A DNA stretch of 43,612 nucleotides from a virus. Below, in pieces: positions 1-31,999 of this stretch (the first letter of the stretch is position 1; each line of letters begins with the position of its first letter). The position numbers and the translations under genes were made by a program. The notes beneath the pieces are model-generated. The model searched no databases. It saw nothing but the letters and a program-made list of their open reading frames with translations, and had not been told where the DNA came from. The stretch spans positions 1-43,612 of the IMG/VR virus record IMGVR_UViG_3300025890_000047; one strand, 5' to 3'.

Positions 1-1254
1 TTGATGGGTATGGACATGTATCCAAAGATTGCAAAGTACCCAGGACTAAGACGCAAGCGAGCTACCAAAGAAAGCTGGGAAGCACATAGGTTTGTTAAAG
101 AAGAAGGCAAAGGTCTTAACATAAACCCACAAGACCCATCAGGTGCTGGCAATAGTTTTCACTACTCAATAGATGATAACAGAATTACAGACGAAGCGTG
201 GATACGACTTAATGGTTATGAGATTGGTATGCCACAACTTGGTCAGGTTTGGTTACTTGCCACGATACTTGACGAAGAAGCAGTCATCCGTTTCCAACTT
301 AATCCATACGGCAGACAGTTTCCTGTAGTCATTGGTGGTATATATCACGACAGTCACAAGACTTATGCACAGTCCTTGTACGACTTAATGCTTCCATTAC
401 ATGAGATAAGCACATGGTTATTGCGTTCTCGTATAGATAACGTACAGGCTGCACTAAGTAATTTGATATTTGTAGACCCAACATCCGTTAGTATTCCCGA
501 CTTGATTGACAGAAATCCGTGGGGATTAGTGCGTACTTTGCCAGGAACTAAACCAGGTGATGGTGTGTTTATCGCAGAAGTACCCGATGTTACCAGAGGT
601 CACTGGAATGATATTGGTCAAATGTCAGAACTAAAACAACGTATTAGTGCTGCGTCAGACATGCAACAGGGTATGCCGACTGGAGATGGAATACGATCTG
701 CGACTGAAATCCAACGACTTACACAACTCGGATCACAAAGACTTGGTGTTATCAGTCGTGTTATGTCAGCCACAGCCGTTAGACCTATGGTTCGTATGAT
801 GGTTGCTAACCTTCAGGATGCAATCAACATGGAGGGTTCTCTAAGAATTTCAGCAGAAGATAGTCCAGGTAAACTAGCGTCTGTCATATCGGACGACTAC
901 CTAGATTTCGATGCTACAATGTTACAAGGAGAAATAGATTATTTAGTTGTTGACGGAACTTTACCAGTTGAGCCGACAAGAAACGCAGAGACATGGATGA
1001 ACATCTTACAAGTGATGAGCCAGAGTGGTTTGTCTATGGAATACAAGATGGGCAAGATTGCTGAAGAAGCTGTGCGTTCAATGGGTGTGTCAGACTTGGA
1101 TCAGTTTAAGATTTCTAAGGATGAAAAAGCACAGGGCATGTCGCCATCTCAGGAGATGGAGATGATGGAAAAAGCAAGGGGTGCTTCGGTAATGCCAGCA
1201 GAACAGTTACAGCAAGAGGCACAAAAAGGTAATTTGAAAAGAATGGGAGAGTAA
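1..1254 (+). CDS. Portal protein, C-terminal part (cut by window edge)
   Basis: The dodecameric portal forms the DNA channel at the capsid vertex, binds terminase during packaging and carries the tail. The 417 readable residues are open from base 1, so the N-terminal part probably lies outside the window and the TTG at base 1 need not be the start. Typical of podovirus-type portals are a mixed wing/stem region near residues 100-160 (a segment beginning YAQSLYDLMLPLHEIST followed by RIDNVQAALSNL), a helical stem near 210-275 rich in Gln and Met (SATEIQRLTQLGSQRLG) and a Met/Gln/Glu-rich charged C-terminal barrel (from about 370). Position upstream of tail and scaffold genes fits. Family assignment is by recognition of overall pattern, not alignment; a head-tail connector of another name is the only serious alternative. 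Confidence 0.82.
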   Translation: MMGMDMYPKIAKYPGLRRKRATKESWEAHRFVKEEGKGLNINPQDPSGAGNSFHYSIDDNRITDEAWIRLNGYEIGMPQLGQVWLLATILDEEAVIRFQLNPYGRQFPVVIGGIYHDSHKTYAQSLYDLMLPLHEISTWLLRSRIDNVQAALSNLIFVDPTSVSIPDLIDRNPWGLVRTLPGTKPGDGVFIAEVPDVTRGHWNDIGQMSELKQRISAASDMQQGMPTGDGIRSATEIQRLTQLGSQRLGVISRVMSATAVRPMVRMMVANLQDAINMEGSLRISAEDSPGKLASVISDDYLDFDATMLQGEIDYLVVDGTLPVEPTRNAETWMNILQVMSQSGLSMEYKMGKIAEEAVRSMGVSDLDQFKISKDEKAQGMSPSQEMEMMEKARGASVMPAEQLQQEAQKGNLKRMGE

Positions 1255-1255
1255 G

Positions 1256-1537
1256 ATGCCAACTGAAACTAAAGCAGCAGAACTTGAGCAGAACCTTAGT
1301 CTTGATGGGTTGTCCAAGCAATGGATGAAACAGATTGTTAAAGAAGCCATTGAACAGCATGAAATGCGAACAATGCCAGTACCAGCACAGGGATGTGCAA
1401 ATTGTAGCTGTAAACAACAAATCCAAGAAGTCATGTGGAAACTAAATTCTTTAAATGCTCGATACCATGAGGACGACAAGTATGCCTTAACCAAGGCAAA
1501 ACTAATAACATTGATGCAAAAGATGGGTATTGAATAA
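1256..1537 (+). CDS. Small hypothetical protein with a Cys cluster
   Basis: A 93-residue protein starting one base after the portal stop with a good ribosome site (GGGAGAG) inside the portal end, so translation is probably coupled. It is predicted helical and contains a CANCSC cluster near residues 44-49 in the middle, followed by a charged helix. Two overlapping antisense frames here are shadows. The family is not recognised. Its place directly after the portal suggests a small structural or assembly role, but the sequence gives no direct evidence for function; the Cys cluster could bind a metal. Confidence 0.7.
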   Translation: MPTETKAAELEQNLSLDGLSKQWMKQIVKEAIEQHEMRTMPVPAQGCANCSCKQQIQEVMWKLNSLNARYHEDDKYALTKAKLITLMQKMGIE

Positions 1538-1598
1538 GTAAGGACGACAGATGCCGACCATCAAAGTAAATTTGTATCAACTATAAACGGGAAGTAAT

Positions 1599-2117
1599 AT
1601 GGCTTTTACAAGACCAACAGGAGAACAAATATCGTTCAGGTCGGCAACGACTGGAACCCATGTTCTTGATACATATCTGGAAGCGTGTGAGAAAGGTGGC
1701 TTTACCCTATCTGCTCTTATGGATAATTTGTATGCGTCTGATGGTGGATTAAATCCAACAGCACTAGCTTTCCGTGTTAACCAAACTGCTGGAGCAGACC
1801 CTAAACTCCAAGCTAGGTTTGGTAATTTTACTAATGCTAACGATGGGTGGCTTGATACAAACCAATTCTTTTTCAGACAGAAGGGTATTTATGCTTCTGG
1901 AGAAAGTTATGAACGACTTGACATGGTTCAAAGTGGTCAAAAGGTTTTAGTTTGTATCACAGCACATACTTCAGCAGCGACAGTAGACAATACAAAATGG
2001 GTTGAGTTCTTTGATGGAAACGCAATTCTTTCAGAGATCACAACTTTTAGAACAAACTCAGAGCCACGCTTAGACTTACTTGAGGAAAGTGTCTTGCTTG
2101 GTATTAACGTCCTTTGA
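1599..2117 (+). CDS. Putative virion/tail-associated protein, unknown family
   Basis: A 172-residue protein preceded by GGGAAG at good spacing. It begins with MAFTRPTGEQISFRSATTGT and has alternating short hydrophobic and polar stretches suggesting a beta-rich fold, with an aromatic middle (WLDTNQFFFRQKGIYASGESYERLD) that I read as a compact binding domain. The C-terminal 20 residues form a predicted helix. It sits 13 bases upstream of the RCC1-type spike gene and after the portal, so a role at the tail or as a fibre adaptor is plausible. No catalytic motif is visible and I do not recognise the family. Confidence 0.6.
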   Translation: MAFTRPTGEQISFRSATTGTHVLDTYLEACEKGGFTLSALMDNLYASDGGLNPTALAFRVNQTAGADPKLQARFGNFTNANDGWLDTNQFFFRQKGIYASGESYERLDMVQSGQKVLVCITAHTSAATVDNTKWVEFFDGNAILSEITTFRTNSEPRLDLLEESVLLGINVL

Positions 2118-2130
2118 AGGAGGAAAATAA

Positions 2131-12556: not shown

Positions 12557-13873
12557 ATGAACGATGATATTGGAATGATTTTAACTCAAGCAATAAAAGC
12601 GTTTAACGAAGACGGCTCTCCACCAAAGCAAAGAGAGTACACTACTAGATCAGGCGTTAAACGATCAGACAACTCTGCGTTCTCTAATGCACTAGACGAC
12701 TACGGCATACTGGCAAACCTACAAAGGTTTATTGCGAATATGCAAGACAAGCCTCATAGCGATGGAGTGCATGGTTTAGTGCCAGGTATTTCTCATCCAG
12801 GTGTAACTCCCAACGCTGCTTTTCTTGGTATAGATTTGGATCGTGACAGAGCCAAGAAAAACCAGATGGAAATTGACGCAGCTAATGAAGAGTTCAAACA
12901 AAAAAGAATTGAGGAGTTATACAACAGACTAGAAAAAACTCCGACTAAAGTTCCAAGCAAGGGAGACATTGAACACACCAATGCTATGGAAGGTAAAGAT
13001 ACAAGTATTACCTATATGCAACCTGGTGAAAAAGTCATGCCTGTTGCCGTTCAGAAACAATTTCCTGAACTTGCTATTGCTGTCGAAGAGGCCATAGGAT
13101 CAATGGGTAAAAACCCACAGCAATTTGTAGTTGGTTCAGACAAGGGTAATTATAACACCAAGACTGGTGTTCAACAATTTGATTGGATGGACGATCTATA
13201 TAAAACAGTGGGTGATTATGGAAAAACAGCAGCCGACTATGTAGCTAATAACCCGTATGCCAAAGCAGCAGCGACTGGTGCACTGGTTGCTGGAGGGCAG
13301 TACTTAGGTGGAGCTTCAGGTCAAACATCTTTGGCATCTGGATTGGGTGCTGGTCTCGGTAGTTATGGTGGTCAGTATTTAGATCAAGCTCTGACAAGCA
13401 AAGACTTCGGAAGCCTCCCTAAGACGGGCACAATTAATTCAAAAGACCTTTCAAGTAGTTTAGGAAACTTGTACGACACAACAAGTAAGTCAGAATTTTA
13501 TGGTGCTTCTCTAGGTGCTGGTCTTGGTGGCATGATGGGATATAAGCCAAATGCTGATGATGTACCGAACCCGTCAGCAAACATAGACACAAGCAATATG
13601 AGCCTAGCAAATGTTCCTATGTCTACTGCACCAACTGTTGGTTTCTTAGAGGGGAATGACAATCCTAATTACTTAGCAAGACCTTCTGCTGAACTGCCTA
13701 TAGCTCCTATGTTCCGTATGCCTAGTGGTGTTTCTTATAAACAAAAAGTAAAAGATAAAGACACTGGTGCTTTTAAATACAGTGACATTGATGAAGACGA
13801 TCAAGGAGGTTTTATGAGAAACCTATCTAGCAGTGCAAGACGTTCAGGATTTGGTAACTCAATCTTAGTATGA
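12557..13873 (+). CDS. Gly-rich virion protein 1 with shared C-terminal motif
   Basis: A 438-residue protein with a strong ribosome site (GGAGG). Residues 100-130 are a charged helix, and residues about 150-180 carry ITYMQPGEKVMPVAVQKQFP, a segment I associate with phage minor virion proteins. Residues 235-270 form an Ala/Gly-rich possible membrane-inserting segment (AAATGALVAGGQYLGGASG). The C-terminus is Ser/Arg-rich and ends RRSGFGNSILV, a motif echoed in the two next structural proteins. It overlaps the acetyltransferase gene by ATGA. A minor or ejected virion protein is inferred from neighbours; no enzyme motif is seen. Confidence 0.65.
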   Translation: MNDDIGMILTQAIKAFNEDGSPPKQREYTTRSGVKRSDNSAFSNALDDYGILANLQRFIANMQDKPHSDGVHGLVPGISHPGVTPNAAFLGIDLDRDRAKKNQMEIDAANEEFKQKRIEELYNRLEKTPTKVPSKGDIEHTNAMEGKDTSITYMQPGEKVMPVAVQKQFPELAIAVEEAIGSMGKNPQQFVVGSDKGNYNTKTGVQQFDWMDDLYKTVGDYGKTAADYVANNPYAKAAATGALVAGGQYLGGASGQTSLASGLGAGLGSYGGQYLDQALTSKDFGSLPKTGTINSKDLSSSLGNLYDTTSKSEFYGASLGAGLGGMMGYKPNADDVPNPSANIDTSNMSLANVPMSTAPTVGFLEGNDNPNYLARPSAELPIAPMFRMPSGVSYKQKVKDKDTGAFKYSDIDEDDQGGFMRNLSSSARRSGFGNSILV

Positions 13874-14316
13874 GGATTAGACCAGCTACCGAAAAAGACA
13901 TTGAAGAATGTGTTGGTCTAGCTCTTGGAATGATACTGGAGAGTTGGTGGCAAGACGAACCATTCAGTTCTGAAAAGATGAGAGACTATGCTTATAAATA
14001 TCTCTTAGATGAAAACAAGTTGTTCCTAGTTGCTGAAGAGGAGGGGACTGTTTATGGGTTCCTTTCTGCAAAAGTTACTTACACTTTTTTTGGTCACTCA
14101 GTACATGGAGAAGAAGAGTTGTTATATGTAGTGCCAGAGAAAAGAACTGGAACGACTGCATTAAAGTTTATGAGAGAGTATGAAAAATGGGCAAGATCGT
14201 TTGACGCAAAACATATCTACTTCGCCCCGACTGCCACACAAAGAAGACAATGGGATGCCCTGTCCAAACGACTTGGATACACATACCTTGGCCCAGCTTA
14301 CGGAAAGAAGTTGTAA
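13870..14316 (+). CDS. GNAT-family N-acetyltransferase
   Basis: A 148-residue protein with the compact GNAT layout: MRIRPATEKDIEECVGLALG start, LFLVAEEEGTVYGFLSAKVT as beta strands 2-4, then EELLYVVPEKRTGTTALKFM, which corresponds to motif A (strand 4 and the acetyl-CoA pyrophosphate loop, here with RTGTTA in place of RGxGIG/A), and a C-terminal FDAKHIYFAPTATQ and KRLGYTYLGPAYGKKL. GNAT enzymes transfer acetyl from acetyl-CoA to amines. Phage GNATs inside structural operons are common but their substrates are mostly unknown. The start overlaps the preceding stop (ATGA), indicating coupling with the virion protein. Confidence 0.82.
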   Translation: MRIRPATEKDIEECVGLALGMILESWWQDEPFSSEKMRDYAYKYLLDENKLFLVAEEEGTVYGFLSAKVTYTFFGHSVHGEEELLYVVPEKRTGTTALKFMREYEKWARSFDAKHIYFAPTATQRRQWDALSKRLGYTYLGPAYGKKL

Positions 14317-16965: not shown

Positions 16966-17853
16966 ATGGCTGGTTACGGAGACACATTCTCAAAAATGGT
17001 CGGGGGTTATTATAAGCCCGACAGCAAAGAGGCTGCGTCTGCTTCTCTGTTTGGTAACGCTTACGACTTCTATGATGCGTATACTAGCAAACAAGATGCA
17101 GAAGCACAGAGTAAAATGGACGCTCAGATGCGAGCACAAGCACAGGCCAACCAAGCTGCGATTGCTCAAGCTCAAGCTGAAAATGAAGCTCTAATTAAAA
17201 AGAGGGTGATGAACAGGATTGCTGAATTTGATGGAGCATTGAAAGAAACTTACTCTCGTATGGGTGCTAGAATGAATGTAGACCCAGAAGATATACAAGC
17301 AAACTACGACTTGCTTCGTAAGCAAGGTTATGATGATCTTAATGCAATCACTGATCGTGTATCTTCAACTGGATTTTCTAATGCCATACGAAGGGGCATG
17401 GATGGTTCAGGTCTTTATAAAGATGAGCAAGCTGCTCTAGCAACTAAGCTACAGAAGAACTACCAAAAGGTAGATCAAGCTGCTTTTGATGCTGCAATTA
17501 TGAGAACCAACTCTTTTGCTAATGCAGTGAACTCAGGAAGAGACAAAGCACTTAACGAAGTATCTACTGTATATGGCAAACCTATTGATGCAGAAAAAGG
17601 TTTGATAACAAACAACGCTAACAGCTATATGAACACTGCCTTTAACAATGCAAACAAGGCTTCGACAGCAAGTGCAACAGCTATGAATAATGCCGACACA
17701 TACTTGGGTAACGTAGTCGGAACTATTGATGAAAAAGCTCCAGGTGCTGTAAGTTATCTTCGTGGCAATTCAACAACAGTTGCTGATCCTAATGTTACAA
17801 AGATAAAAGAATTAGAAAAGCAAATAGCAATGATGAAGGGAGCTACTACATAA
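16966..17853 (+). CDS. Internal virion protein, helical (T7 gp14-like role)
   Basis: A 295-residue protein with ribosome site AAGGAG. Residues 40-85 form an Ala/Gln/Met-rich coiled coil (DAQMRAQAQANQAAIAQAQ), and the remaining sequence is helical with a second short coil at the C-terminus (IKELEKQIAMMKG). Size, composition and position just before two larger internal proteins resemble the smallest of the three T7-type ejection proteins, which line the trans-envelope channel. The stop overlaps the next ATG by one base. The assignment is by analogy and not by a motif. Confidence 0.6.
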   Translation: MAGYGDTFSKMVGGYYKPDSKEAASASLFGNAYDFYDAYTSKQDAEAQSKMDAQMRAQAQANQAAIAQAQAENEALIKKRVMNRIAEFDGALKETYSRMGARMNVDPEDIQANYDLLRKQGYDDLNAITDRVSSTGFSNAIRRGMDGSGLYKDEQAALATKLQKNYQKVDQAAFDAAIMRTNSFANAVNSGRDKALNEVSTVYGKPIDAEKGLITNNANSYMNTAFNNANKASTASATAMNNADTYLGNVVGTIDEKAPGAVSYLRGNSTTVADPNVTKIKELEKQIAMMKGATT

Positions 17854-19820
17854 TGGCTTTCTCAGCAAACTTCTTTGACGCATACAACACCGAAAAGACT
17901 AACATCCGTAAGAGGCGTAAAGAAAACGCTGAGATGTTTGAGGCATATAAAGATGCCAAAGTCGCTGATGGTGAAGAAGTATCTGTAGAAGAACTATCTA
18001 ATATGAGAAGCAATCTAGCTGGTGGCGACTTCTATTTTGGTCAGGCATTGCCAGCCGAAAAGATGATGGGTGCGTTAGCTGACCGAACAAATGAAAGAGT
18101 TACTAATACTATTTCTGCTGAGTTTGCACAACAAGCAGAGCAGACACAAAAGATTTCTAAGGTGGTCGATAACATAGTTCCTAGTCTTTTAAACATCGCT
18201 GACATTGATGGTGCTGATGGTCAGGAAAAACTAAAGGCAAGGTTTACAGCGATCAACCCTAAAGACCCAGCATTTGGAAACCAGTTATATGAAAGCTGGA
18301 AAGATAGATTACCTAACATGATTGAAGTTGCCAAAGATAAAGAAGTAAATGACTTTATGGCAAAACACAGTGAAGCAAATTTATTTAGTGAAGTAGAGCA
18401 TCTTACTGTTGGTCTTCCAGCTTGGAAGGTTAATGCTATTAGGCAAGGGTACTTATCAAAAGAAAAGGTTTTTGATAACAAGAACTTTACTGATGCTTTG
18501 AAGAACGTAAATCTAAACACAAAGCCAGCAGAGTTTACTCGTATGGGCACAACAGAGTTAGATGATTTTGCTAAACTGTATCTTTTAAGAAATGGTGTTC
18601 TTGAAAAAGATATTACTCCAGAGAGAATAGCTGCTACTAAAGCTGCACTTCAGCCTATATATAATGCTGAGACAAGAGCATATTCAGAAAAACAAGAAAC
18701 AAAGTTTGAAGAGGATGTTGAGAAAGACATTGCCTTGTTGGATATGATTTCAGACCCAACGCTGGATAACCAACGAATGATGTTAGATACAGTGAACAGG
18801 TACAGAAGAGATAATGAGTTACCCGAATATACAAGTATAAATGATGCGAATTTTCAAAAGCTCCTAAAGTCTATGGGAACTCCAGCACTTTCTGCTGCCA
18901 AAGCAAAATATACAAAAATGAAAACGACTGCTGATGCAACAGCAAAAACAATATATGATGCAGCAGTAACCACTTCGCAGAGTAAGTTTGATAGTATCTT
19001 AAAAGGTATGTCAGATAGCGATAACAAAACTGCAACAACAGGTATAGCTGAACAGTTACACAATAGTTATCACATACCACCTTCAATGGTTAGTACAGTT
19101 TTAACAGATATTCTGACATTAGTGGAAGACGACTTTCCAAGTAACCCAACTGAACAAGCTGCTATAATAGGTTTGATGGTTAGGAGACATGGATTATCAA
19201 CAAGCACTGAAGCTATACTTGATTATCAGGCTGCTCAAAGAAAAAGAGATGCAATAGGTATCAAGCCAAACACAACAGTAACAGAATATTTTGACATGGA
19301 GATGAAGCCATTTCTTGTTTTCATACAAAAGCCTATGACACAGATAGCTCTTCTGCCTATAAACAAACCTGTCTTGACGAATAGTGCATACCCTAATGGA
19401 ATATCAGTTCCAGACATACAGAAAAAAGCTATTCAAACTGCTAATGATTTTTTTGATAATATGATTAAGCAAATTGATATGAATGAGTTTCTTTTAGATG
19501 GTGATGATGATGATGGTATTCTTACCATTACTAAAAAAATAGAAGACGCAAGAACTGCTGCCATCATGGAAATCAATAATGCCAAGCCTAATGCCAAGCC
19601 TACATACTTCAGTAAATCTGGCCCTAATTACATAACGAATAATCAACCACTACCTCAAGGTATGAAGGCTGGAAGATACCAATTACAGAATGGTCAGTAT
19701 GTTTATGTGGGGCCATTGACCCAACAACAACAGAATACAAAAATTGTTGGTGGCGTTAGAATGGTTAAGAATGGTAGAGGTCAATGGGTTAGAAGTAACA
19801 ATCAAAGTAACATACCATAA
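17853..19820 (+). CDS. Internal virion protein, large helical (T7 gp15-like role)
   Basis: A 655-residue, strongly helical, soluble protein beginning MAFSANFFDAYNTEKTNIRK. It is charged with no membrane segment, contains long helices (residues about 130-400) and ends in a small beta-like tail (GMKAGRYQLQNGQYVYVGPL) followed by a Gln/Asn/Arg-rich end. It lies between the coiled-coil protein and the giant protein, matching the middle member of podoviral internal core sets. Translation is coupled to its neighbours on both sides by TAATG overlaps. No specific family recognised. Confidence 0.6.
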   Translation: MAFSANFFDAYNTEKTNIRKRRKENAEMFEAYKDAKVADGEEVSVEELSNMRSNLAGGDFYFGQALPAEKMMGALADRTNERVTNTISAEFAQQAEQTQKISKVVDNIVPSLLNIADIDGADGQEKLKARFTAINPKDPAFGNQLYESWKDRLPNMIEVAKDKEVNDFMAKHSEANLFSEVEHLTVGLPAWKVNAIRQGYLSKEKVFDNKNFTDALKNVNLNTKPAEFTRMGTTELDDFAKLYLLRNGVLEKDITPERIAATKAALQPIYNAETRAYSEKQETKFEEDVEKDIALLDMISDPTLDNQRMMLDTVNRYRRDNELPEYTSINDANFQKLLKSMGTPALSAAKAKYTKMKTTADATAKTIYDAAVTTSQSKFDSILKGMSDSDNKTATTGIAEQLHNSYHIPPSMVSTVLTDILTLVEDDFPSNPTEQAAIIGLMVRRHGLSTSTEAILDYQAAQRKRDAIGIKPNTTVTEYFDMEMKPFLVFIQKPMTQIALLPINKPVLTNSAYPNGISVPDIQKKAIQTANDFFDNMIKQIDMNEFLLDGDDDDGILTITKKIEDARTAAIMEINNAKPNAKPTYFSKSGPNYITNNQPLPQGMKAGRYQLQNGQYVYVGPLTQQQQNTKIVGGVRMVKNGRGQWVRSNNQSNIP

Positions 19821-20030: not shown

Positions 20031-23000
20031 GTGGCATTTAAAGACAGTCAAGAAGGTGGGGATTGGTCTTGGTTAGATCAACCTTCAGGTGAGGGTTCAG
20101 CTTCACTTGGTTATGCAGCAAACTTAGATAAACAAAAGGCTCTCGAAGTTTATAAGAACGGGGAGTTTATCCAAGACATCATGGATTACTATGGTGAGCG
20201 AGATGGAATAACCTTTAGTTCAAATGAAGAAGCCTACGACAAATTCTGGACTGATCGTACATGGCGTAACCTCAATACTTTTGCTATTGGTGCTGATTAC
20301 TTAGATGGTAAATCTAACACTGATGCACAGAACATACGACTTGCCCGACTTCAATCAGTGCACACAGCCCTACCAGATTTCTGGCAAGAGGGTGGTAATA
20401 GAGATGCTGGTCATTTAGCAGATATTGCTGGATCAGTAATCTTAGACCCAATTAACGCAATAGGTTTTGGTGCTGGTGGTGCAGCAGCAAAAACAGCAGC
20501 CTTCACAGCTATACGAAGTGGGCTGAGTAAAGAAGCAGCAAAGTCGGCTGGTCGAAACGCAGCAATGAAAAAAGGTTTTGTTGCTGAAGGTGCAGCTAAC
20601 GCACTCGTTGAAGGTGTGGCTAATGTTGGTATTCAAAACAGAGATATAGAAATAGGGCTAAGAGGAGAATATAATCCTTTTGAAACTGCTACTGCTTCTG
20701 CTATGGGCTTTGCCTTGGGTGGTGCTCTCGGTGTTCCTATGGGTCTTGCTGGTGCTTATATGCCAGCCTTTACCAAAGCTGGGAGATCAGGGTCTCACGA
20801 CTGGAAGACATCAAACAAATTATCTCAAGGTATGCGTGAAGGAAAAAAAGCTAGGTTCCAAGACAAACTAGACGCTGCAAGTAACGAAGTTGCAAACGAG
20901 ATTGTAGACGAAGTCGATGATATGACAGCTTCTCAAATCTTGAGAGGCAATGTTATTGCTAGAGCAAAGCAAGATTATGACAAAGCCAGAGCTGAAACAG
21001 CAGAACAAAATGGTGGACTAGATTTAGAAAAGGGAGATGCAAATAATCTTCCTGATGGAGAGCTTTCAACTTGGTCTAATTTAGAAGCTGCTTCAGCACG
21101 AGTGGATCATTTAGCCAAAGCCTCTCACGAAAGAAAAGCGTCAGCACAACAAATAGCTCCTGAAGACCCAGCTAAAGCTAATGACTTAATGAATGAAAGT
21201 CAGAAACTAGCTGAAGCATCTAATGCTATTCAAGACGCATTTAATAGAATGAATAAGAAGTACGAAGACGGGCTAGTGCCTACTGAAAAAGAAATTGAAA
21301 CTCTTTTGTCAGAAGATCAAAGAGCACAGCAATTATTATTTGATTTTAATACAGGCAGTGACCCTAATGTTAAAAACCCAGTTGATCCAAAAGATGCCGT
21401 TATTCCTGGTGCACGACCAGACACTCAACTTCCAGATGGTTCAGCCGTACAAGATGTTGCACCCAAGACAGACCCTGTAGCTGTTCAAGCAGAGGCAAGG
21501 CAAGTTGAAATCAATAAGGCTCAGACAGATGTAGACAATACAAAAGCGTCCTTTGAAGCTGGTGCGACAAAAGTAAATAATGCCAGTCGTAAATTAACAA
21601 GACTTACAGGAGCCTATGAGCGATCATTACAGTCTGGTGTTCCAGAAAATGTTACGTCAGCAGAACAAGCACTAAGGGTAGCAGAAGAAGAATTAGATGT
21701 TGCGACTGGTGAATTGGAAGTATTAACTAACAATGCTAAGATTGCTGAAGATGCTCTTGTTGCAAAAAAATCTGAAGAGTTAAAGGCTGCACCAGATCAA
21801 GACACTTCTCCAGAAGTCGTGGCTGAAACAGAAGCAACAGCTACTGGCAACAAAGTCGTTGAAGAGCCACAGTCGGCAGAAGAAATTGTTGATGAGTTAG
21901 TTAACAGCACTGACCCAGATGAGAAGATTAGCTTCACCAGCCTCAAGTCTACATTAAATTATATTGTTGATGAGCTTGGCTTTAGCCGTGCAGAAGTTAT
22001 TAACTCTTTACCGAAAGCTAAAAAAGGTAGGCCAACTAACGCAGACAAAGAGGCGTTTAGGTCTGCTGCCATTCAGTTTACAGAACGAGCAATGGTACAA
22101 CAACAAGCTCAAAATGCTATTGAACAGTTAACTTCACCAGAACAATTCTTTGATTTTAATGTTGTTTCTGGAATTTTAGATAGCACCTTTACTGATCCTC
22201 GTCTTCGTGCCATTGCTCAAGACGAATATATAACAGCTATAGCTGACCAATCCCCATCTTATATTGCTAACCTGATTAGCGAAAATCCAAACTTAAAGAT
22301 GTCTGAAATTTTAATTCAGGCAGAAGATTACTTCGGAAAAGAAGTTGCTGAGATAATGGCAAACTCTATGAAGTCAGATGTGGTTCAAAAGTCCTCTATA
22401 GATATGGATAAGTTAATTGGCAAGAAAGCTGCGATTGGAAACATGACCAGTAACATCAAAGCCATGAACGACACTATCTTTAGAGTTAGTGAACTTAGGA
22501 AAGCTATCCTTGGCAAATTAACAGACGAAGAATTTAAGCGTGGTTATGGTCAAGTAACTGAGACAAAAAAAATACGGGGTCAAGAGAACCTTACTCAAGC
22601 ACAAGTAAACCAGATTGTTAACAACCCAAACTTCAAGGGTCAGGTAGACACATACAGTAGTTTCTCTTTCCAAGCTGGCTCTGGCTCCACACCACAAAGA
22701 GCCGTTGCTAATGATGCAGAGAAGCAAGTCAAAGAAATAGCTAAGTCAAATGGTATTAACCCAGACCTAAACTCTGGCGAAATCATTGAACAGTTAGAGA
22801 TGCGTGTTCGTAAATTAGAGAACGAGCTTGACGCTGGCGTTAGAACACCTATCGATATGACTAAGCCTCAAGGCTCAACTCTTACTAAAGCTGAGTTTGC
22901 ACAGTTAAGCGAAAAGCAACAAATCATGGAAGTGTTTGTGTCTCGACTACCAAAAGGAAAGGTAGAACAGATCAACGCAATGAGAGAACAGCTTATCAAA

Positions 23001-26000
23001 GCTAACATTGCAGATGGTACTATTACTCCTGAGATGGCAGTAAGCACAGCAGATTTAGCTGTTGAAAGAACGATCGAAAACATGATGAAGCGAGATGAAT
23101 TGCTTGGTCAAGTTGATGGTAAGGGAAAGTCTTTCTCCTCTAATCAGTCAACAAGGGGTATGCAAGATGCCTCAGTTGCAGATCAGTACGCAGACAATGC
23201 CTCACACATGGGTAAAACATATGAAGGTGGCTTTGGTAAAATAAGTATTGGTCGTAATAGAACTATGGTTGGTGGTTCTGCATCTAAGAGAGTACAGAAG
23301 ATACTTCGATCTGCTAACAGGGTTGGTTTAAATGATGGTGCAGTCTTTAGAAAGCACGGCATTGTTAAAGGTGAGAGTGCTACAGTTTCATTTCAAGAAG
23401 CTGCACTGCAAGAATTAGAACAGTCGTTTATCGACAACGCTACTAACCGAGTTGTCAGAAGTGACGAAAAGATTAAAGACAACAAGGTTGAGTTTGACAA
23501 TGCAAATAATGCAATCAAAGAAGCGAATAAACTTAACGCTCAAATTAAAAAGTTAGATAAAGAGATTGATGAAAACCCTGGTGCAGAAAATGTACCTCAA
23601 CTTGAAAAAGATGTTCAACTTTTAAATCAGCAAGTAACTAAGATATATGAAGATGCTATTGCTAAAGCTCCTGATTATGCAGCAGAAAAAGGAAAGCTCA
23701 ATCAATTAGAGCCAACTCTCCGTGGCACAGTATTGGAAATAAGAAAAGAGTTTTCACAGGAAACTGCTAAAGAAGCTGCTGGTCGAAAAGCAGAAAACAG
23801 AAAGTCGTCACCAGTCGGTAAGGTACAGGTGATACTTAATGAGTTGAAAAACCACCAGACCAACATAGTAAAAGCTAAGAAGCGTGGTCGTTCTAAACCA
23901 ATCATGGATGCTTTGTATTCAGAGAAGAAAGAAATATATAAGCGATACAATGCTGAGTTCAAAAAACTTAGCAAGTCAGATCAGAAAAGAATTAAAGAGG
24001 CGAACAAGAAAGTCGCAACACAAACTGCTGCTGAAATTGAAATCAGGCAGCGAGCTAAAGAACAAGAAGTCGCAGACATTAAGATAGATGAAGTTCCAGA
24101 GTGGTATGGTCTTGATGACATAACACCTGAAGAACGAGTTGGTATTATTGAAGATAGTCAAAAACTAGCAGATCAAAACAATAAGTCTCAGGCAGCAGAA
24201 GTAGAGATTAAACAAAAAGCACAAGCTGTTTTATCTAACGACTTGCCTAAAGACGAGATGGTAAGAATAATACTAGAGTTAAAGTCTGAGCTTGATGCAA
24301 TCAAGAATGGTGTACCACCAACTAAAGCCCCAACTGGCACACAGTTCAAACCCTACATCAGAAAAATAGATGGGTATGAAGTGGACGTACATAATCATTT
24401 TAAGTTTGAAGGAAAGGGAGGCGAAGGCTTCCTAGTATTTGATGGTGTCCGTGTAGCTCAAATGGGTAAGATTGGAGACAAAGTAAGTCTTACACTTATT
24501 ACAGACAAGGCTTCAAGTAACGACATACGATTGTTCAGCAACTCGAATATGATGAAAGATAATATCCCTGAGATATTTAAAAACAGAATTGCTGAGTATG
24601 CTGAAAGAACTGGAGCTATCATTAAGACTGAGGGTGAAGAAGGCTTGCAGTTCAAACAAGAGTGGAACAAGTCAGAAACATATAAAGGTCGTGCTGAAGC
24701 AGATGCAGAAGACCTTGTAATTGATGATCCGACTGTAGAGACATCTCCTATATCTGATCCTAAAAATGTTATGACACATACAGCCAACGACTATCAGGTT
24801 CCTCCTGGTCGAAAGATGGCTGTGCAAATTATTGATGATGTTGAAGGTTCAGCACTTCATGGAGTTGTCCGTATCCCTAACCCTAACCAAACTATAGGTC
24901 AGGTATTAAAGACCAGTTCTAATAAGAAGTTTATTATTGGTCATGTAAAAATAGATCGTAAGATAGCATCTGGTCGTAGAAAAAAGGGTATGGCTAATGT
25001 TGTTACCCCAGCCTCTCTTGCTGAAGCTATGGAAGACTTTACTCCATTAACTCCATCAGAGGGTAAGGTCACTTATCAAGAAGGACAATTACTTTTAGGC
25101 AACAAAACAGTCGCAGATAAAAGCCCACGAAAAAGAGCTATGCGACCAGTTAAGGTTGAGGACTTAGGCAATATTAAGGTTAAGAAAAGTTTTCTACCTA
25201 ATGCTGTAGCAGACAAAATTGATAACGCTGCTGACTTACAAGCCTATATTAATAACTTAGAAAACATTTCATGGAGCCGACTAGGTACACTTGCAGATGT
25301 CAAAAGGTTTACGAATACTTTAAAGCAAGCCTACGCAGCAATGGGCAACGCAGTTCCTAATGGCGTGAAAAGAATTGAGTTAGATCAACGACAGTCTTTC
25401 AAAACTCTTCGTAATGTTTTTAAAGGAAGAGCAGATGATGAGATTGAAGCATCGCTAGATTTCCTAAGACGAATTAACCCTGATGGCTCCAATGGAGCTA
25501 TGCCAAGGTTTGAAGGCGTAGATGGAATTGAGGGAGATGCTAACGCAGTCGGTGCTTATAATACAAACGATGGAAAGATATTATTAACTGACAAGCTATT
25601 TGAAAAGGGTGGTGATGAACAGTTACGACCTATACCAGCGACCATAACTGTTGTGCATGAGGTAGGCCACTGGGCTTATGACAACATGTTAACTCCATCT
25701 GAAAAGATGATGTTCTGGCACTCTATGTCAAAATATTATGATGCAGATGGTAATTTAGATATGGAGCTTTTACAGAAAAGACTGCCAGGAATAAGTGGCA
25801 ATGAGATTGAAAGTCCAGCAGAATTATTTGCTCATCAGTTTACATCTTATGCTTTAAATATTGGAGCAGTTCCAGACGCTGCATTGTTTATTAAAGTTGC
25901 ACGACACGCTGTAACATTGATTGAGCGTTTTGTGTTTGGCAAACATCCTATGGGAATACAAAGTGCTGACCCAGATTTAGAAGCATTGTTTGAAAGAATT

Positions 26001-29000
26001 ATTCCTAGAAACCAGTTTGATGCAGATGGATCAGTTGTTCATGGAGCCAGTCGTTTTGCTGGGCTTGAAGAGAATGGCTATACTGTATCTCCGACTGCTG
26101 GGTTTATAGGAAGACAGCTTAATGAATTAGATAATATGCGTAGTAAGCTAACATCTGTTATGAACGTATCAATCGTTAATGATGTTGCTGATACACAGTT
26201 GTTATTAAAAACCCTAGAGGAGACAGGGAAAAATATCTATAGCAAGTTTGGTGGTGGGCAAGGCAAGACACATCATTACACTAACAAAGCTACTGGAGAA
26301 GGTGGAAATCAAAGAGTACGACTGCTTGATGGTCAAGTCACAAACAAGCAAGAAGTCGTAACAGGAGATGGCTCTACTAAGCTAGTTAACATATATAATT
26401 ATCCAGCAGCAAGACGAGCCAGAAACAGATTGCTTAATGCTCAATCTGCCATTCGTGATTACATGAAAGAAGTTACGACTTACGAAGCATCTACAAAAAC
26501 ATCTACTGATGATGCAGAGCTACGACAGTTAATTGCTTCACAACAAATGGACATGGAAGATGCTATGCCTGACAACTCGTTCATTGAAATGGATGAAATG
26601 GAGTTGGCAAACGTAGGTTCTTCTTGGGAGGCTCAAGCCGAAGTTCTCTCTAGGCAGATGACTATGACTACTGGAAACCTTAACTTCATGCACATCCGAA
26701 GACTGGCTGGCGACATGCTTAATGCTATTGACGATGGACAGCGTGAGCTTGTTAAAGCCTTCAATCGTAATATGCCAAGAGATGATATGTCTCGTCAGGT
26801 ATCAATCGACTTCAAAGGTGATGCAAGTATTACTCAGCCAAGCATCAAGGGCAGAAAGAAAAAGATGGGCGATGCTATACAGCTACGTCAAGAGAAGCAG
26901 TTGGTTAATGATATTAAAGAATTGGAAACTGAAAGTGTATTGTTAACTCAAGTTGGTAATGATGCGTTGTTAAGTGCTATCCGTAATGGCGATCCTAAAA
27001 TATTTATGGATAGCTTGGCTGAAACAAACCCTGTGATTAAGAAGTCTGTTAAGCAAATGACGGACGCAGAGCTTAATGCAGAAAAGAAAAGAACAAATTA
27101 TGGAGACAAGCGTAAAGTTGACTTGGCGTTAGAAGTCTCTGCTCGTAAGAACGCAAGTAAAAATGTAAACCAAGAAGAAGCTGAAATCGTATCAGACCCA
27201 GCCGTACAAAAAGCTATTAATAATGAGGTAGCTCAAACTGCTGGCACTGATAGCATAGCTGGTATCCCAGCCAAGACACCACAGCCTATTAAAGATTTCT
27301 TGAGGGGTCTTACTAATGGCGACAAAGTGCAAGAAGCTGTAGGTCAGAACCTGATTTATAGATTACTTAATGTTGGAGGTCACACTATTGACGACTTCGA
27401 TACTGGCTTTGTTCCAGAAAGTATTATGGAAGGCATCTTTACACAGAATACAGTTCCAAAAAGAGCGACTGGAGAACCAGCTTCTTTGAAGGATCAGGCA
27501 TATAACGGCTTGAGAAAAGAATTAAGAGCTATAACTAAGTCCCTTTCTGGTAAGGGAGATATGACACCTAGAGATATGGAAGTAATGTCAGACTTGGCGT
27601 TTCATTTATCTATGTCTGATGCGACTAAAGCTAAATTTGTAAGCAACATGAGAACCCTAGAATTACCTTCTGGTTTGGATAGTTTGCTTTGGTTACGCCA
27701 AGCTATGGTTTATAAGGCTGAAGGTAATTTAGCAGAGTTACAAAGACATGTTCGTGTCTTTGAAGTCGAAGATGGTTTCTATAAAATCCCAGCAAATCCA
27801 AAAGCTCAAGAGCTAATGAGGATTGTGAACAGACACTTTGAAACTATTGCTTACTCACTCAATGGTAACTTTGACCCTGACAAGCTACCACTACAGTTGA
27901 TGAGCTATGGAGACATGTTCGCATCTCAACGTATAGACACAGGCATATCTTCAGCAGTTGATGGTGCAGATAAACGCTTTGTTAATAAGCATGTAGTTCA
28001 AGATTACGCAGTTGAAGCAGTAGACAAATTGCATCAAGACAAAGAAATTATTGCTCGGTCTTTTCTTGGGGTAAGTCGAGAAGCTGATTTGAAAAATCAT
28101 ACATATATCCACTCTGGTCAAGATGGGATGAATACTCAAATTCATAAGACTGAGGTTGGTGAGTATGGCCCAGGTTATTACATGCAGACTTTGTCTGAGT
28201 TTAACTCAAAGTCGTCTGCTGATTTACATAACCGAGGGGCAGATGATTTAATTAAATCAAGTAGCGTATCTGACAATCTTAAACAAAAGTCTTTAATGGC
28301 AAACAGAAAACTGACCGATGTTAATATTGCTATTGATGCACTAAGCATGGAAAAGAAGATGGCTACTCCAGCTAGAAAGAAAGAGATTGTTGGTACTCTA
28401 CAGAACCTAGTCAAGAGAGCTAATTCTTTACAAACAATTATAAACAGAACAGCTACTGTAAACTTAAACAGTGATGTGGTTCCTGTATTTTCAAATCCAA
28501 GGAACATGTTTAATTTTAGTCGAACTGCAATATACGACTTTGTAAATCCTTCTGATAATAACATTGCACATATCATTGCTGATATGGGTGAAAAAGGATT
28601 GATCTCCGTAAAAGGCGTTCAAAAGTTACAAGAAGTTTTAGATGGTTCGTTCACTGGCTCTGACTTCTTCCGTGCTCTAACAGATGAAAACGTAGGTGTT
28701 ATGCACAAGCATGGCGATAGCGTAAATTCATTTGAAGCAAAAACAAGACTTAATGAATACCTTGAAGATGCTGGTTATGAAGGTTCAGTTCACTCAAATA
28801 AAAATAGTGAGACTGTAATAGTTAACTACAATAGCGAAACAATGAAGCCTATTAACGGAGACTTTACCGAAGCAGAACTTAATAACACCAATCAAGGGAA
28901 ATCTGGTGGAGATATAAAACCAACTGGCGACTTGTTAATAAAACAATTAGAAGAAGGCGAAGCCTTTGACCCAACCGACTTTGTTGGATTTAGTGCACAG

Positions 29001-31628
29001 TTACAAAGATCAAGCCTAGCCGATCCAGTCGTAAGAGTGGTAAGGCGTATGGCTAAGAAACAACCACTGGAAGAAGGCGACTTACAGCGAGCGTCAAAAT
29101 TTTCTACTGTTAAAAGTTGGTTCACTGAAAACTCAATTAGGTTTAGAGACAAAGGTGCTCACTGGTATGGAAATCTTTTAAAGCCTAAGAATGGTATAGG
29201 TATATTTGAAAAACACTCAGTTGATTTGGCTGGTAAGATAAACCCTATCTTTTCTAAACTAGAAGAATTGCCTGATGCCAAAGGCCGTATATCAAAGTGG
29301 ATGGGTAAAAACTCTGGGTTAATTGGCAAAGGTGTTCCAGTTCCCGATAGCCACAAAAGAATTGTTAACGCTCTTAGGGCTGGCAACTTGGCTGTCTTAA
29401 AACAAGGTGAAAGAAAAATTGCACAACAAATAGCAAATGCGTTTACTAAAGAACTAAACGATATGAGAGCTATAGGCATCAAGGTTGGTGATGTTACCCA
29501 GGGAGGACGTAATGGTTATTACTTCCCACAAGTTTGGGACGTTGAAGCAATTAGGGAAAATCCTAATGCCTTTATAAACGGCTTATTGGAAATGTTTGTC
29601 CGAGAACAAAACTCTCCAGACTTTGAGGGCACAAGGTTAACTCGTGATGAAATACTAACGAAAGCAAAGAACCTTCAAGAAAGAATGGTTGATAACGAGG
29701 GTGTGGCTGATGAGAGTTTAGTTCACACTGCTATCTCTGATCCATTTTCAAGAAGGATGCTTACTCTAAAGCCAGAAGAAATGAAGGGAATGAGGGGATA
29801 CTTAGTCAACGACCTCCAAGGAATTTTGGCTAAATACTTTGACAGATCAACTCGTAAGATAGCTCTATCAGAAAAGTTTGGAGTAGAGGGTCACGGCTAT
29901 GATGCTTATAAATCTATTGCAGATTTAGGAGATGATGCTGCTGTAACTATACTATCTAATGCCAAGCTAACAGTTAGTAAGTTTGATAGTATGGGTGTAA
30001 AGGTTGATACTGGAGACACTATTGTTCCTAAAATAAACAAGTCGTTTGATGAAATAAAAGAACTTATAGGCTCTGTAAAGAAAGCTCTTGCTGGGAACCC
30101 TCAACAAAATATGGTTCAGGCGAAGAACATTCTTATCAACGCTATAGATGTTACTCAAAGAACTAACCCTCAATTTCTAGTAAGGGTAGATGCAGTCGTC
30201 AACGCACTGGCTGACTTTCAAGGCGTACCACAAAGAAAGGGTTTAATAAGTGACCTTGAAAGCATGAACAGGGTTTTGAACAAGAGACCTATTACTGGAG
30301 AAGGTCACGAATTTTCACACCAGTTCACAAGAAGGCTCAAGACTTTCAATGCTGTTTCGTTACTTGGATTTACAACCCTAACTTCAATGCCTGATTTAAC
30401 TTTACCTTTAATTAGGTCTGGTAACTTAGGTGCTTTTGCCAAGGCTTGGAAACAATATAGTTCCAACCCAGCTTACAGGGCTGCTGCAAAGAATATTGGT
30501 GTGGGTATTGAGAACCTTATGCACGACAGAATGGTACAGATGGCTGGCGAGGGAAATCAGAAGTTTAGTAACTCATTCTTTAACGCAACCTTGTTGACCG
30601 ACTGGACTAACTTCAACAGACAGATGGCATCAATGGTGGGTATGGAAGCCTTTAGGTCAGAAATACAAAACGCTATTACTCTTAGAAACCAAGGAAAACA
30701 AAACAGTCGTTCATATAAAACTTCTGCAAGTTTTTTAGAAAGGTATGGACTAACTGGTGAAAATGCCGAGGTTGATTACTTGTTACCAGGAGCACCACGA
30801 GTGGATATGCCGACTGAAAACCTAGCACAAAGACAAGCATTTAAATATGCAGCTATGCGTTTTACTAACGAAGCTATTTTCACACCTAACCCAAATGACA
30901 TACCGATGTGGGCACAAACACCTTGGGGTTCATTAATGTTCCAGCTTAAATCTTTCCCACTAATGATGGGTAGGATGAGTAAAGATGTGATGTCAGAAGC
31001 CTTTGGTAAAAATGCAGATGGCACAATGAAAGCTAATTTCAAACCACTAATGTATTTACTTACGGCTGGTATAGGTATCGGTGCAGCTTCGGCTGGTGTC
31101 AAAGACCTTGTTCAAGGAAGAGGCGAAGACAGTCAAGGCAATAAGATACGAGAGTTCAGAGATCGAAAGGCAACTGACAGTATATCTTACATAGCTTCAT
31201 TGTTGGGCATCGAAGAAGATGGAGATACTGATAAAGTTTTAGGTTGGTACATCGAAGGTCTCATGGCAATCGGTGGCTTGGGCTTGTTTGCTGAAATGCT
31301 ATACAACTCTTCGGCTCAACTAGATAATGGAAAGTATGGATTTGTCAGAACAATGTCAGCCATAGCTGGCCCAGGAGTTTCTGCTGCTGAAGATATACTT
31401 TTTGATATTCCAGCAGGAGCAAAAGACTTTGTTACAGGTGACGGGACTAAGACTGGTCAAAGGCGTGAAATGTTTAGATCAATCGCTGGACGACTGCCTG
31501 TACTCGGAGGTCTTCATGGCTTCAGAGAAGGAGCAGCCGACTTGGGTGGCAAGAAAGGTGGCAATAAAAAAACCCAATCTAAATTTGGCAAGGTTACGTT
31601 TGCAACTAACAAAGGGTTTGGGAATTAA
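20031..31628 (+). CDS. Giant 3865-residue polyvalent/ejection protein: metallopeptidase and ADP-ribosyltransferase-like domains
   Basis: One uninterrupted 11.6 kb frame from a GTG start (GGAG seven bases upstream). Residues 131-161 and 221-246 are Gly/Ala-rich hydrophobic segments, as are about 3672-3695 and 3736-3758, fitting membrane insertion. Residues 270-800 and 1150-1450 are mostly coiled coil. Around 1760-1970 is a zincin-like domain with HEVGHW (ligands H1876 and H1880, catalytic E1877) and a downstream SPAELFAHQF whose E1931 is the likely third ligand. Around 2685-2945 is an ADP-ribosyltransferase-like domain with YIHSG (H2694), GEYGPGYYMQ (Y2716/Y2717) and SETVIVNY (E2927), the H-Y-E layout. 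Phage 'polyvalent' proteins combine such domains and enter the host with DNA. The C-terminal 900 residues are helical with no catalytic motif I recognise. Delivery into the host is inferred. Confidence 0.8.
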   Translation: MAFKDSQEGGDWSWLDQPSGEGSASLGYAANLDKQKALEVYKNGEFIQDIMDYYGERDGITFSSNEEAYDKFWTDRTWRNLNTFAIGADYLDGKSNTDAQNIRLARLQSVHTALPDFWQEGGNRDAGHLADIAGSVILDPINAIGFGAGGAAAKTAAFTAIRSGLSKEAAKSAGRNAAMKKGFVAEGAANALVEGVANVGIQNRDIEIGLRGEYNPFETATASAMGFALGGALGVPMGLAGAYMPAFTKAGRSGSHDWKTSNKLSQGMREGKKARFQDKLDAASNEVANEIVDEVDDMTASQILRGNVIARAKQDYDKARAETAEQNGGLDLEKGDANNLPDGELSTWSNLEAASARVDHLAKASHERKASAQQIAPEDPAKANDLMNESQKLAEASNAIQDAFNRMNKKYEDGLVPTEKEIETLLSEDQRAQQLLFDFNTGSDPNVKNPVDPKDAVIPGARPDTQLPDGSAVQDVAPKTDPVAVQAEARQVEINKAQTDVDNTKASFEAGATKVNNASRKLTRLTGAYERSLQSGVPENVTSAEQALRVAEEELDVATGELEVLTNNAKIAEDALVAKKSEELKAAPDQDTSPEVVAETEATATGNKVVEEPQSAEEIVDELVNSTDPDEKISFTSLKSTLNYIVDELGFSRAEVINSLPKAKKGRPTNADKEAFRSAAIQFTERAMVQQQAQNAIEQLTSPEQFFDFNVVSGILDSTFTDPRLRAIAQDEYITAIADQSPSYIANLISENPNLKMSEILIQAEDYFGKEVAEIMANSMKSDVVQKSSIDMDKLIGKKAAIGNMTSNIKAMNDTIFRVSELRKAILGKLTDEEFKRGYGQVTETKKIRGQENLTQAQVNQIVNNPNFKGQVDTYSSFSFQAGSGSTPQRAVANDAEKQVKEIAKSNGINPDLNSGEIIEQLEMRVRKLENELDAGVRTPIDMTKPQGSTLTKAEFAQLSEKQQIMEVFVSRLPKGKVEQINAMREQLIKANIADGTITPEMAVSTADLAVERTIENMMKRDELLGQVDGKGKSFSSNQSTRGMQDASVADQYADNASHMGKTYEGGFGKISIGRNRTMVGGSASKRVQKILRSANRVGLNDGAVFRKHGIVKGESATVSFQEAALQELEQSFIDNATNRVVRSDEKIKDNKVEFDNANNAIKEANKLNAQIKKLDKEIDENPGAENVPQLEKDVQLLNQQVTKIYEDAIAKAPDYAAEKGKLNQLEPTLRGTVLEIRKEFSQETAKEAAGRKAENRKSSPVGKVQVILNELKNHQTNIVKAKKRGRSKPIMDALYSEKKEIYKRYNAEFKKLSKSDQKRIKEANKKVATQTAAEIEIRQRAKEQEVADIKIDEVPEWYGLDDITPEERVGIIEDSQKLADQNNKSQAAEVEIKQKAQAVLSNDLPKDEMVRIILELKSELDAIKNGVPPTKAPTGTQFKPYIRKIDGYEVDVHNHFKFEGKGGEGFLVFDGVRVAQMGKIGDKVSLTLITDKASSNDIRLFSNSNMMKDNIPEIFKNRIAEYAERTGAIIKTEGEEGLQFKQEWNKSETYKGRAEADAEDLVIDDPTVETSPISDPKNVMTHTANDYQVPPGRKMAVQIIDDVEGSALHGVVRIPNPNQTIGQVLKTSSNKKFIIGHVKIDRKIASGRRKKGMANVVTPASLAEAMEDFTPLTPSEGKVTYQEGQLLLGNKTVADKSPRKRAMRPVKVEDLGNIKVKKSFLPNAVADKIDNAADLQAYINNLENISWSRLGTLADVKRFTNTLKQAYAAMGNAVPNGVKRIELDQRQSFKTLRNVFKGRADDEIEASLDFLRRINPDGSNGAMPRFEGVDGIEGDANAVGAYNTNDGKILLTDKLFEKGGDEQLRPIPATITVVHEVGHWAYDNMLTPSEKMMFWHSMSKYYDADGNLDMELLQKRLPGISGNEIESPAELFAHQFTSYALNIGAVPDAALFIKVARHAVTLIERFVFGKHPMGIQSADPDLEALFERIIPRNQFDADGSVVHGASRFAGLEENGYTVSPTAGFIGRQLNELDNMRSKLTSVMNVSIVNDVADTQLLLKTLEETGKNIYSKFGGGQGKTHHYTNKATGEGGNQRVRLLDGQVTNKQEVVTGDGSTKLVNIYNYPAARRARNRLLNAQSAIRDYMKEVTTYEASTKTSTDDAELRQLIASQQMDMEDAMPDNSFIEMDEMELANVGSSWEAQAEVLSRQMTMTTGNLNFMHIRRLAGDMLNAIDDGQRELVKAFNRNMPRDDMSRQVSIDFKGDASITQPSIKGRKKKMGDAIQLRQEKQLVNDIKELETESVLLTQVGNDALLSAIRNGDPKIFMDSLAETNPVIKKSVKQMTDAELNAEKKRTNYGDKRKVDLALEVSARKNASKNVNQEEAEIVSDPAVQKAINNEVAQTAGTDSIAGIPAKTPQPIKDFLRGLTNGDKVQEAVGQNLIYRLLNVGGHTIDDFDTGFVPESIMEGIFTQNTVPKRATGEPASLKDQAYNGLRKELRAITKSLSGKGDMTPRDMEVMSDLAFHLSMSDATKAKFVSNMRTLELPSGLDSLLWLRQAMVYKAEGNLAELQRHVRVFEVEDGFYKIPANPKAQELMRIVNRHFETIAYSLNGNFDPDKLPLQLMSYGDMFASQRIDTGISSAVDGADKRFVNKHVVQDYAVEAVDKLHQDKEIIARSFLGVSREADLKNHTYIHSGQDGMNTQIHKTEVGEYGPGYYMQTLSEFNSKSSADLHNRGADDLIKSSSVSDNLKQKSLMANRKLTDVNIAIDALSMEKKMATPARKKEIVGTLQNLVKRANSLQTIINRTATVNLNSDVVPVFSNPRNMFNFSRTAIYDFVNPSDNNIAHIIADMGEKGLISVKGVQKLQEVLDGSFTGSDFFRALTDENVGVMHKHGDSVNSFEAKTRLNEYLEDAGYEGSVHSNKNSETVIVNYNSETMKPINGDFTEAELNNTNQGKSGGDIKPTGDLLIKQLEEGEAFDPTDFVGFSAQLQRSSLADPVVRVVRRMAKKQPLEEGDLQRASKFSTVKSWFTENSIRFRDKGAHWYGNLLKPKNGIGIFEKHSVDLAGKINPIFSKLEELPDAKGRISKWMGKNSGLIGKGVPVPDSHKRIVNALRAGNLAVLKQGERKIAQQIANAFTKELNDMRAIGIKVGDVTQGGRNGYYFPQVWDVEAIRENPNAFINGLLEMFVREQNSPDFEGTRLTRDEILTKAKNLQERMVDNEGVADESLVHTAISDPFSRRMLTLKPEEMKGMRGYLVNDLQGILAKYFDRSTRKIALSEKFGVEGHGYDAYKSIADLGDDAAVTILSNAKLTVSKFDSMGVKVDTGDTIVPKINKSFDEIKELIGSVKKALAGNPQQNMVQAKNILINAIDVTQRTNPQFLVRVDAVVNALADFQGVPQRKGLISDLESMNRVLNKRPITGEGHEFSHQFTRRLKTFNAVSLLGFTTLTSMPDLTLPLIRSGNLGAFAKAWKQYSSNPAYRAAAKNIGVGIENLMHDRMVQMAGEGNQKFSNSFFNATLLTDWTNFNRQMASMVGMEAFRSEIQNAITLRNQGKQNSRSYKTSASFLERYGLTGENAEVDYLLPGAPRVDMPTENLAQRQAFKYAAMRFTNEAIFTPNPNDIPMWAQTPWGSLMFQLKSFPLMMGRMSKDVMSEAFGKNADGTMKANFKPLMYLLTAGIGIGAASAGVKDLVQGRGEDSQGNKIREFRDRKATDSISYIASLLGIEEDGDTDKVLGWYIEGLMAIGGLGLFAEMLYNSSAQLDNGKYGFVRTMSAIAGPGVSAAEDILFDIPAGAKDFVTGDGTKTGQRREMFRSIAGRLPVLGGLHGFREGAADLGGKKGGNKKTQSKFGKVTFATNKGFGN

Positions 31629-31630
31629 CT

Positions 31631-31999
31631 ATGGAAAAAAAAGAAGGCTACGCATCAAAGAATTTCAAGTGGAGTGAGTTCGCTTGTCGATGCTGTGGGT
31701 TTGTAAACGTAGAACAGGAAGCTGTAGAAAAACTACAGGCTCTCCGAGATGAGCTTGGCATACCATTTTCTCCGTACTCTGCAAGTCGTTGCCCAAGACA
31801 CAACGCCAAAGTCGGAGGTGCACCAAAGTCTCAACACATTGCCAGGGAGGACGAACCTTCCAAGGCTTTTGATGTACCATTGGTTACAGACAAAGACACG
31901 ATTGTTAAGGCTGCAATGAAAGTCGGCTTTATGGGAATTGGAATGAATTACAAAACCTTTGTTCATATGGACAACAGGAAAAAAAGAGCGAGATGGTAA
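31631..31999 (+). CDS. Endolysin, M15-type peptidase
   Basis: A 122-residue protein resembling peptidase M15 (VanY/M15_3-like) enzymes that cut peptidoglycan stem peptides. It starts with the typical NFKWSEFACRCC segment and LQALRDELGIPFSPYSASRC, then the metal-site motifs SQHIA (H69), KAFDVP (D81) and FVHMD (H112). These three zinc ligands in this order and spacing are characteristic. There is no signal peptide, so release would depend on the adjacent holin-like gene. It follows the giant gene by two bases and the next gene by one. Confidence 0.85.
   Translation: MEKKEGYASKNFKWSEFACRCCGFVNVEQEAVEKLQALRDELGIPFSPYSASRCPRHNAKVGGAPKSQHIAREDEPSKAFDVPLVTDKDTIVKAAMKVGFMGIGMNYKTFVHMDNRKKRARW

Follow-up and report, generated by a model that had tools for sequence, protein, structure and literature searches.

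A 3,865-residue protein of a marine phage: probably a gp16-class ejection protein enlarged by a polyvalent enzyme cassette

Introduction

What kind of protein does a phage encode in a single reading frame of 3,865 codons? We met this question in a 43,612-base stretch of viral DNA from IMG/VR (the whole of this stretch is called the window below). A preliminary description, made from the letters alone, took the protein for an ejected effector that also builds the DNA conduit. The view that polyvalent proteins reach the host together with phage DNA comes mostly from gene context. Proteins of the ejection kind and of the polyvalent kind have each been described before, but for a polyvalent cassette carried by a gp16-class scaffold we know of no description. 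In the open-access literature we found neither a paper that pairs a polyvalent with an internal virion protein nor one on an ejection protein with ADP-ribosyltransferase and metalloprotease. The analysis below leads us to characterize the giant protein as, probably, the gp16-class ejection protein of a CRP-810-type phage, enlarged about threefold by a polyvalent cassette of about 2,700-2,750 residues between an N-terminal membrane module and a gp16-type C-terminal core.

The giant reading frame and its relatives

The frame runs from a GTG start at 20031 to a stop at 31628 with no internal stop codon and takes up 26.6% of the window, so that the earlier remark on one frame filling more than a quarter of it holds (Table 1). 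A ribosome-binding-like GGAG lies upstream of the GTG, and GC content by codon position is even across the whole ORF. The product has a computed mass of ~425 kDa and a computed pI of 5.9. Compared directly with Pfam and PHROG, the whole protein gave no match of note, and individual relatives gave only weak, chance-level matches to PHROG.

Table 1. Features of the giant ORF and of its neighbours (positions in the window)
Feature	Residues	Position	Strand	Remark
Whole giant ORF	3,865 aa	20031..31628	+	probable gp16-class ejection protein with polyvalent enzyme cassette
N module	1-262	20031..20816	+	shared with pelagiphage 'internal virion protein D'
Variable linker	263-1784	20817..25382	+	acidic at 251-750
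Zincin-type metallopeptidase domain	1785-1990	25383..26000	+	predicted
HEVGHW motif	1876-1881	25656..25673	+	predicted active site
SPAELFAHQF	1928-1937	25812..25841	+	Glu1931, third zinc ligand candidate
Remnant of second HExxH domain	2430-2640	27318..27950	+	motif absent in the window
ART-PolyVal-type domain	2650-2962	27978..28916	+	probably inactive
C module	3010-3865	29058..31625	+	T7 gp16 C-terminal homologue by profile
C-terminal hydrophobic segments	3672-3756	31044..31298	+	aligned with T7 gp16 TMH II
295-aa neighbour		16966..17853	+	kept in relatives' internal-virion cluster; role by position only
655-aa neighbour		17853..19820	+	in gp15 slot; conserved in close relatives
Endolysin (peptidase family)		31631..31999	+	directly 3' of giant; first of lysis genes

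Relatives were gathered by tblastn and by scans of IMG/VR. There were 37 non-identical full-length ones (whole-gene loci on different contigs), each a single ORF of 3,050-4,033 aa. The lengths of the N module and the C module are steady among them (824-880 aa for the C module, start to end), while the linker from the N module to the first zincin takes 686-1,663 aa. A widespread family of marine phages has this layout throughout, with the extra residues, protease domain included, between the two membrane segments.

In two genomes the giant lies in pieces. Roseobacter phage CRP-810 (L015) has three ORFs, gp36, gp35 and gp34, corresponding in order to the N, middle and C parts of a gene of ~9.6 kb; the published annotation names gp36 alone of the three (PMC11288001). 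At the gp36/gp35 break the reading goes on in another frame (about L015:21090-21130), and at the gp35/gp34 break a 31-bp tandem duplication shifts the frame (L015:27065-27126). Neither break lies within a module; the second is in the ~73-codon gap from the ART domain to the C module. The three ORFs look like a product of two frameshifts, which may be mutations or sequencing errors. The other case is contig L072, which differs by single-base indels from a relative with 94% identity (L073); single-base insertions at L072:4760 and L072:7862, probably sequencing errors, break the giant there.

These split copies are what could be said for an artefact, i.e. separate genes fused by assembly or an open frame arisen by chance. 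We give this explanation practically no credence: the pieces in CRP-810 and L072 differ from intact relatives by frame-breaking indels, 37 non-identical full-length relatives on different contigs are single ORFs, and in 200 shuffles of the ORF's DNA with the same base composition the longest stop-free run was 146 codons. The giant ORF is genuine.

The phage and the neighbouring genes

The window is a fragment: its portal gene is truncated, no terminase was seen on the 43.6 kb, and the IMG/VR class of the record is linear. Its capsid and stabilization proteins match those of CRP-810 (8e-165 and 2e-164, respectively), and the genes for capsid, stabilization protein, fiber, GNAT and the giant stand in the same order in both. 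These similarities show that the window comes from a marine phage of the CRP-810 type. CRP-810 is the founder of a proposed marine phage family with genomes of 52-68 kb (PMC11288001); in a complete genome of that size the giant gene would make up about a fifth.

The giant is the last gene of the virion cluster, before the lysis genes, and this order is conserved in relatives. The preliminary description placed it beside two internal virion proteins. The position of the 295-aa and 655-aa neighbours, which are conserved in relatives, agrees with such a role, but no similarity to T7 gp15 was detected for the protein in the gp15 slot. The virion cluster also includes a gene for a GNAT acetyltransferase (13870-14316), at the same place as in relatives; pelagiphage S35C6 has an acetyltransferase at the corresponding position of its cluster. 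Among the structural genes, an 880-aa protein (2131-4773) contains RCC1-like repeats of GWGYNGHG type, as seen by eye.

Terminal modules and homology with gp16

The C module is the best conserved part of the giant protein. With hhalign, the profile of 27 relatives matched T7 gp16 and its relatives with probability 99.9 and E-value 1.7e-31 over 561 columns, starting at T7 residue 597 and extending to about residue 1183 and beyond, through the second hydrophobic region; the match to T7 gp16 alone was weak. The module also matched a protein of Escherichia phage TL-2011b (E-value 2.1e-21), which itself matches phrog_342 (4.8e-210), the family that T7 gp16 matches over its full length. An AlphaFold2 model of the module (pLDDT 72.6, pTM 0.73) had the PhiM1 ejectosome as its best PDB match (probability 0.94, E-value 6.7e-3), with low TM-scores (0.19 and 0.16). 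On the profile evidence, the C-terminal ~850 residues are homologous to the C-terminal region of T7 gp16. Neither Pfam nor PHROG gave a lytic transglycosylase match for the giant; T7-type gp16 has such a domain and the P22 type does not, so it is not universal in the class (PMC8954989).

Several other proteins belong in this context. Podophage proteins of ~1,000 aa, unannotated or vaguely named (L173, L174, L179 and L180), are gp16-class ejection proteins; several of the phages concerned have a gene for a lytic transglycosylase just 5' of the gp16-class gene. The 1,671-aa gp52 of pelagiphage HTVC103P (L176:11252-16264) combines similarity to the C module with a C-terminal phage lysozyme domain. 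When bacterial genomes were searched with the C module, a single contig was found, in a binned Phycisphaerae assembly.

Hydrophobic stretches had been noted at both ends of the protein, and they are present at residues about 129-161 and 217-242 and at residues 3672-3694 and 3736-3762. By the Kyte-Doolittle measure, the hydrophobic segments span 129-242 and 3672-3762 in the giant and 319-412 and 1133-1269 in T7 gp16. The N-terminal one (residues about 125-245) is rich in Gly and Ala and includes a DP[IL]N motif, and the N module gave a profile match to T7 gp16 residues 318-346 (probability 86, E-value 5e-6) that covers 28 columns only. This is suggestive of a candidate equivalent of TMH I of T7 gp16. 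We also considered the giant as a pelagiphage gp37 with a simple insertion and rejected this, as the N module alone is shared.

No recognized domain was found in the linker of the window copy (residues 263-1784). In one relative, the linker (L083:2974-5499) contains an E3_binding domain (PF02817, E-value 2.8e-7); the linker may thus house differing small domains. Coiled coils had been described without a precise location, and they are borne out only in part; a heptad test exceeded 99.9% of the null at residues 2997-3094 and at no other place. Long helices appear near residues 2272-2318 and 2748-2808 in the AlphaFold2 model of the enzyme region.

The enzyme region

The metallopeptidase site named in the preliminary description is well founded. 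The pattern HE..HW...P.E..A, to which HEVGHW and SPAELFAHQF belong, is invariant in 34/34 sequences compared, at a mean column identity of 26-27%, and HExxHW arose in none of 2000 shuffles of the giant protein. The AlphaFold2 model of the enzyme region (pLDDT 72.9, pTM 0.42) shows this domain as one helix followed by three strands, then the HExxH helix and the Glu helix, an arrangement that agrees with the description of polyvalent metallopeptidases in PMC5512222. Scores against known families were weak: the window zincin matched Peptidase_M48 with E-value 0.0053, and the best PDB sequence match had E-value 0.17, though nearly all PDB sequence matches were zincin metallopeptidases. We characterize residues 1785-1990 as a zincin-type metallopeptidase by motif and predicted secondary structure; its activity is a prediction.

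This zincin is the sole enzymatic site kept in all 34 sequences, and that would suit the main rival to our reading, a polyprotein. Here the zincin would cut the giant during head assembly, in the way proposed for P1 DdrB, into an N chain (membrane), a middle chain (effector) and a C chain (conduit), so that the virion never contains the full-length protein. The two gene breaks of CRP-810, lying between modules, would agree with such cutting, and processing has been reported for P1 DdrB (PMC5512222). On the other hand, those breaks may be mutations or sequencing errors, the giant has no known cleavage site, and N4 vRNAP, a virion protein of comparable size, goes into the particle without being processed (PMC5512222). 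We consider the polyprotein rather unlikely.

N4 vRNAP brings up another candidate, i.e. that the giant is itself an N4-type virion RNA polymerase. The size is similar (3,500 aa for N4 vRNAP), and a metallopeptidase domain has been attributed to this giant virion protein of N4 (PMC5512222). Profiles of the whole family and of the enzyme region showed no similarity to N4 gp50 (probabilities 0.1 and 1.2), and we regard this identity as almost certainly wrong.

Many relatives have, after the first zincin, a second HExxH domain (HEIGHM...EEWF in other clades) followed by an ADP-ribosyltransferase domain of the ART-PolyVal kind. For the latter, PF18760 was matched best by L005 (38.4 bits against a cut-off of 31.2) and more weakly by three further relatives; the window copy gave no match to PF18760. 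This copy has HSGQ in place of the HGTP motif but retains GPGxY. The ART motifs are clean in other clades, and CRP-810 has both these and the second HExxH intact. Sequences without the second HExxH form one clade (support 95/86). The loss is secure for the window, L020, L021, L022, L023 and L041; two fragments, L018 (too short) and L025 (domain partly covered), are also labelled in this clade. In the clade of the window the second HExxH has been lost, and so has the histidine motif of the ART domain. With this motif altered and no Pfam match, the ART domain of the window copy is probably inactive. The ART-like domain of the preliminary description is confirmed as a feature of the family, with L005 above the cut-off, and is much less evident in the window itself.

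The folds were harder to establish than the motifs. Sequence motifs, secondary structure and Pfam support speak for both the zincin and the ART, but when the model of the whole multidomain enzyme region was compared with PDB folds, the search returned helical background only and did not independently confirm either fold; a PDB sequence search with the ART profile found no ART. In BFVD the model of the enzyme region matched large polyvalent proteins (E-values 1.2e-20 and 7.4e-12), with ART-PolyVal proteins lower down; the UniProt name of the matched proteins is 'large polyvalent protein'. At least two domains of unrelated kinds are joined in the giant, a single polypeptide whose gene lies close to those of the virion.

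The losses in the window clade, where the C module is still conserved, may also be read in favor of a mostly structural protein: the insert would be a spacer or scaffold, the zincin would serve assembly only, and the ART would be a relic with no effector function. Variation of linker length by more than twofold agrees with that. Still, the catalytic residues of the zincin are invariant at ~26% mean column identity and the ART motifs are clean elsewhere, which argues for enzymatic selection. We find the mostly structural explanation improbable, more so than the polyprotein.

Proposed role of the protein

Homology of the C module with gp16, together with an enzyme region that resembles large polyvalent proteins, fits the initial idea of an effector that also builds the conduit; the part of the idea that rests on the ART is weakened in the window, where this domain is probably inactive.

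If the giant behaves as T7 gp16 does, the head would contain it and it would leave, unfolded, by way of the tail; its two hydrophobic regions would insert it into the inner membrane, and on the cytoplasmic face the gp16-type core would serve as a hub that binds DNA. The intervening ~2,750 residues would likewise come to lie in the host cytoplasm. In T7 gp16 the hydrophobic regions flank residues 411-1118, which are placed in the host cytoplasm and bind DNA (PMC8954989). With a shared topology, residues ~246-3671 of the giant, metallopeptidase included, would be in the cytoplasm; we infer this placement of the enzyme region by analogy with a composite T7 model. The metallopeptidase would arrive within the conduit and might cut a host protein or free the cassette. 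One could speculate that the ejection hub is a membrane-tethered enzyme platform, the metallopeptidase entering the cytoplasm before most of the DNA and acting on a host target where entry takes place or, once inside, releasing the cassette; we offer this tentatively, as a possibility with less than an even chance of being right.

Enzyme domains within a gp16 homologue would give polyvalent enzymes a concrete delivery route and a predicted membrane side of action. As CRP-810 is in culture, packaging, processing and activity are directly testable. The results also suggest that ejection proteins may be hidden among the giant or split ORFs that abundant marine phages carry without annotation.

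Comparison with known systems

T7 gp16 (internal virion protein D, PHROG 342) has in common with the giant a C-terminal region of about 560 columns, hydrophobic regions that flank the core and a place as last gene of the internal-virion cluster. It has 1,318 aa as against 3,865, and published gp16-like proteins range from 609 to 1,337 aa (PMC8954989). Unlike T7 gp16, the giant has an insert of ~2,750 residues with zincin-type and ART-type domains and no transglycosylase domain that we could find. Homologues of the C module of ordinary size, encoded after a lytic transglycosylase gene and free of the insert, are AEW24591 of Escherichia phage TL-2011b (1,004 aa) and the internal virion protein of Vibrio phage CKB-S2 (1,059 aa).

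In cultured pelagiphages, 'internal virion protein D' (HTVC019P gp37, about 1,265 aa) occupies the same gene slot and shares the N module, with about 27-34% identity over some 200 residues. Its other ~1,000 residues have no detectable relation to the C module, and it has no enzyme cassette. A further counterpart is the set gp36, gp35 and gp34 of Roseobacter phage CRP-810: the same protein, with the same order of modules, in the same genome family as the window. It differs in being annotated as three ORFs with two frame breaks and in retaining the second HExxH and the ART motifs.

Phage polyvalent proteins (Iyer et al. 2017, PMC5512222; PF18760) resemble the giant in that zincin and ART domains occur in a large protein encoded beside virion genes. 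The polyvalent domains described there stand beside MuF, portal or RNA polymerase parts, whereas in the giant the predicted enzymes lie inside a gp16-type ejection scaffold.
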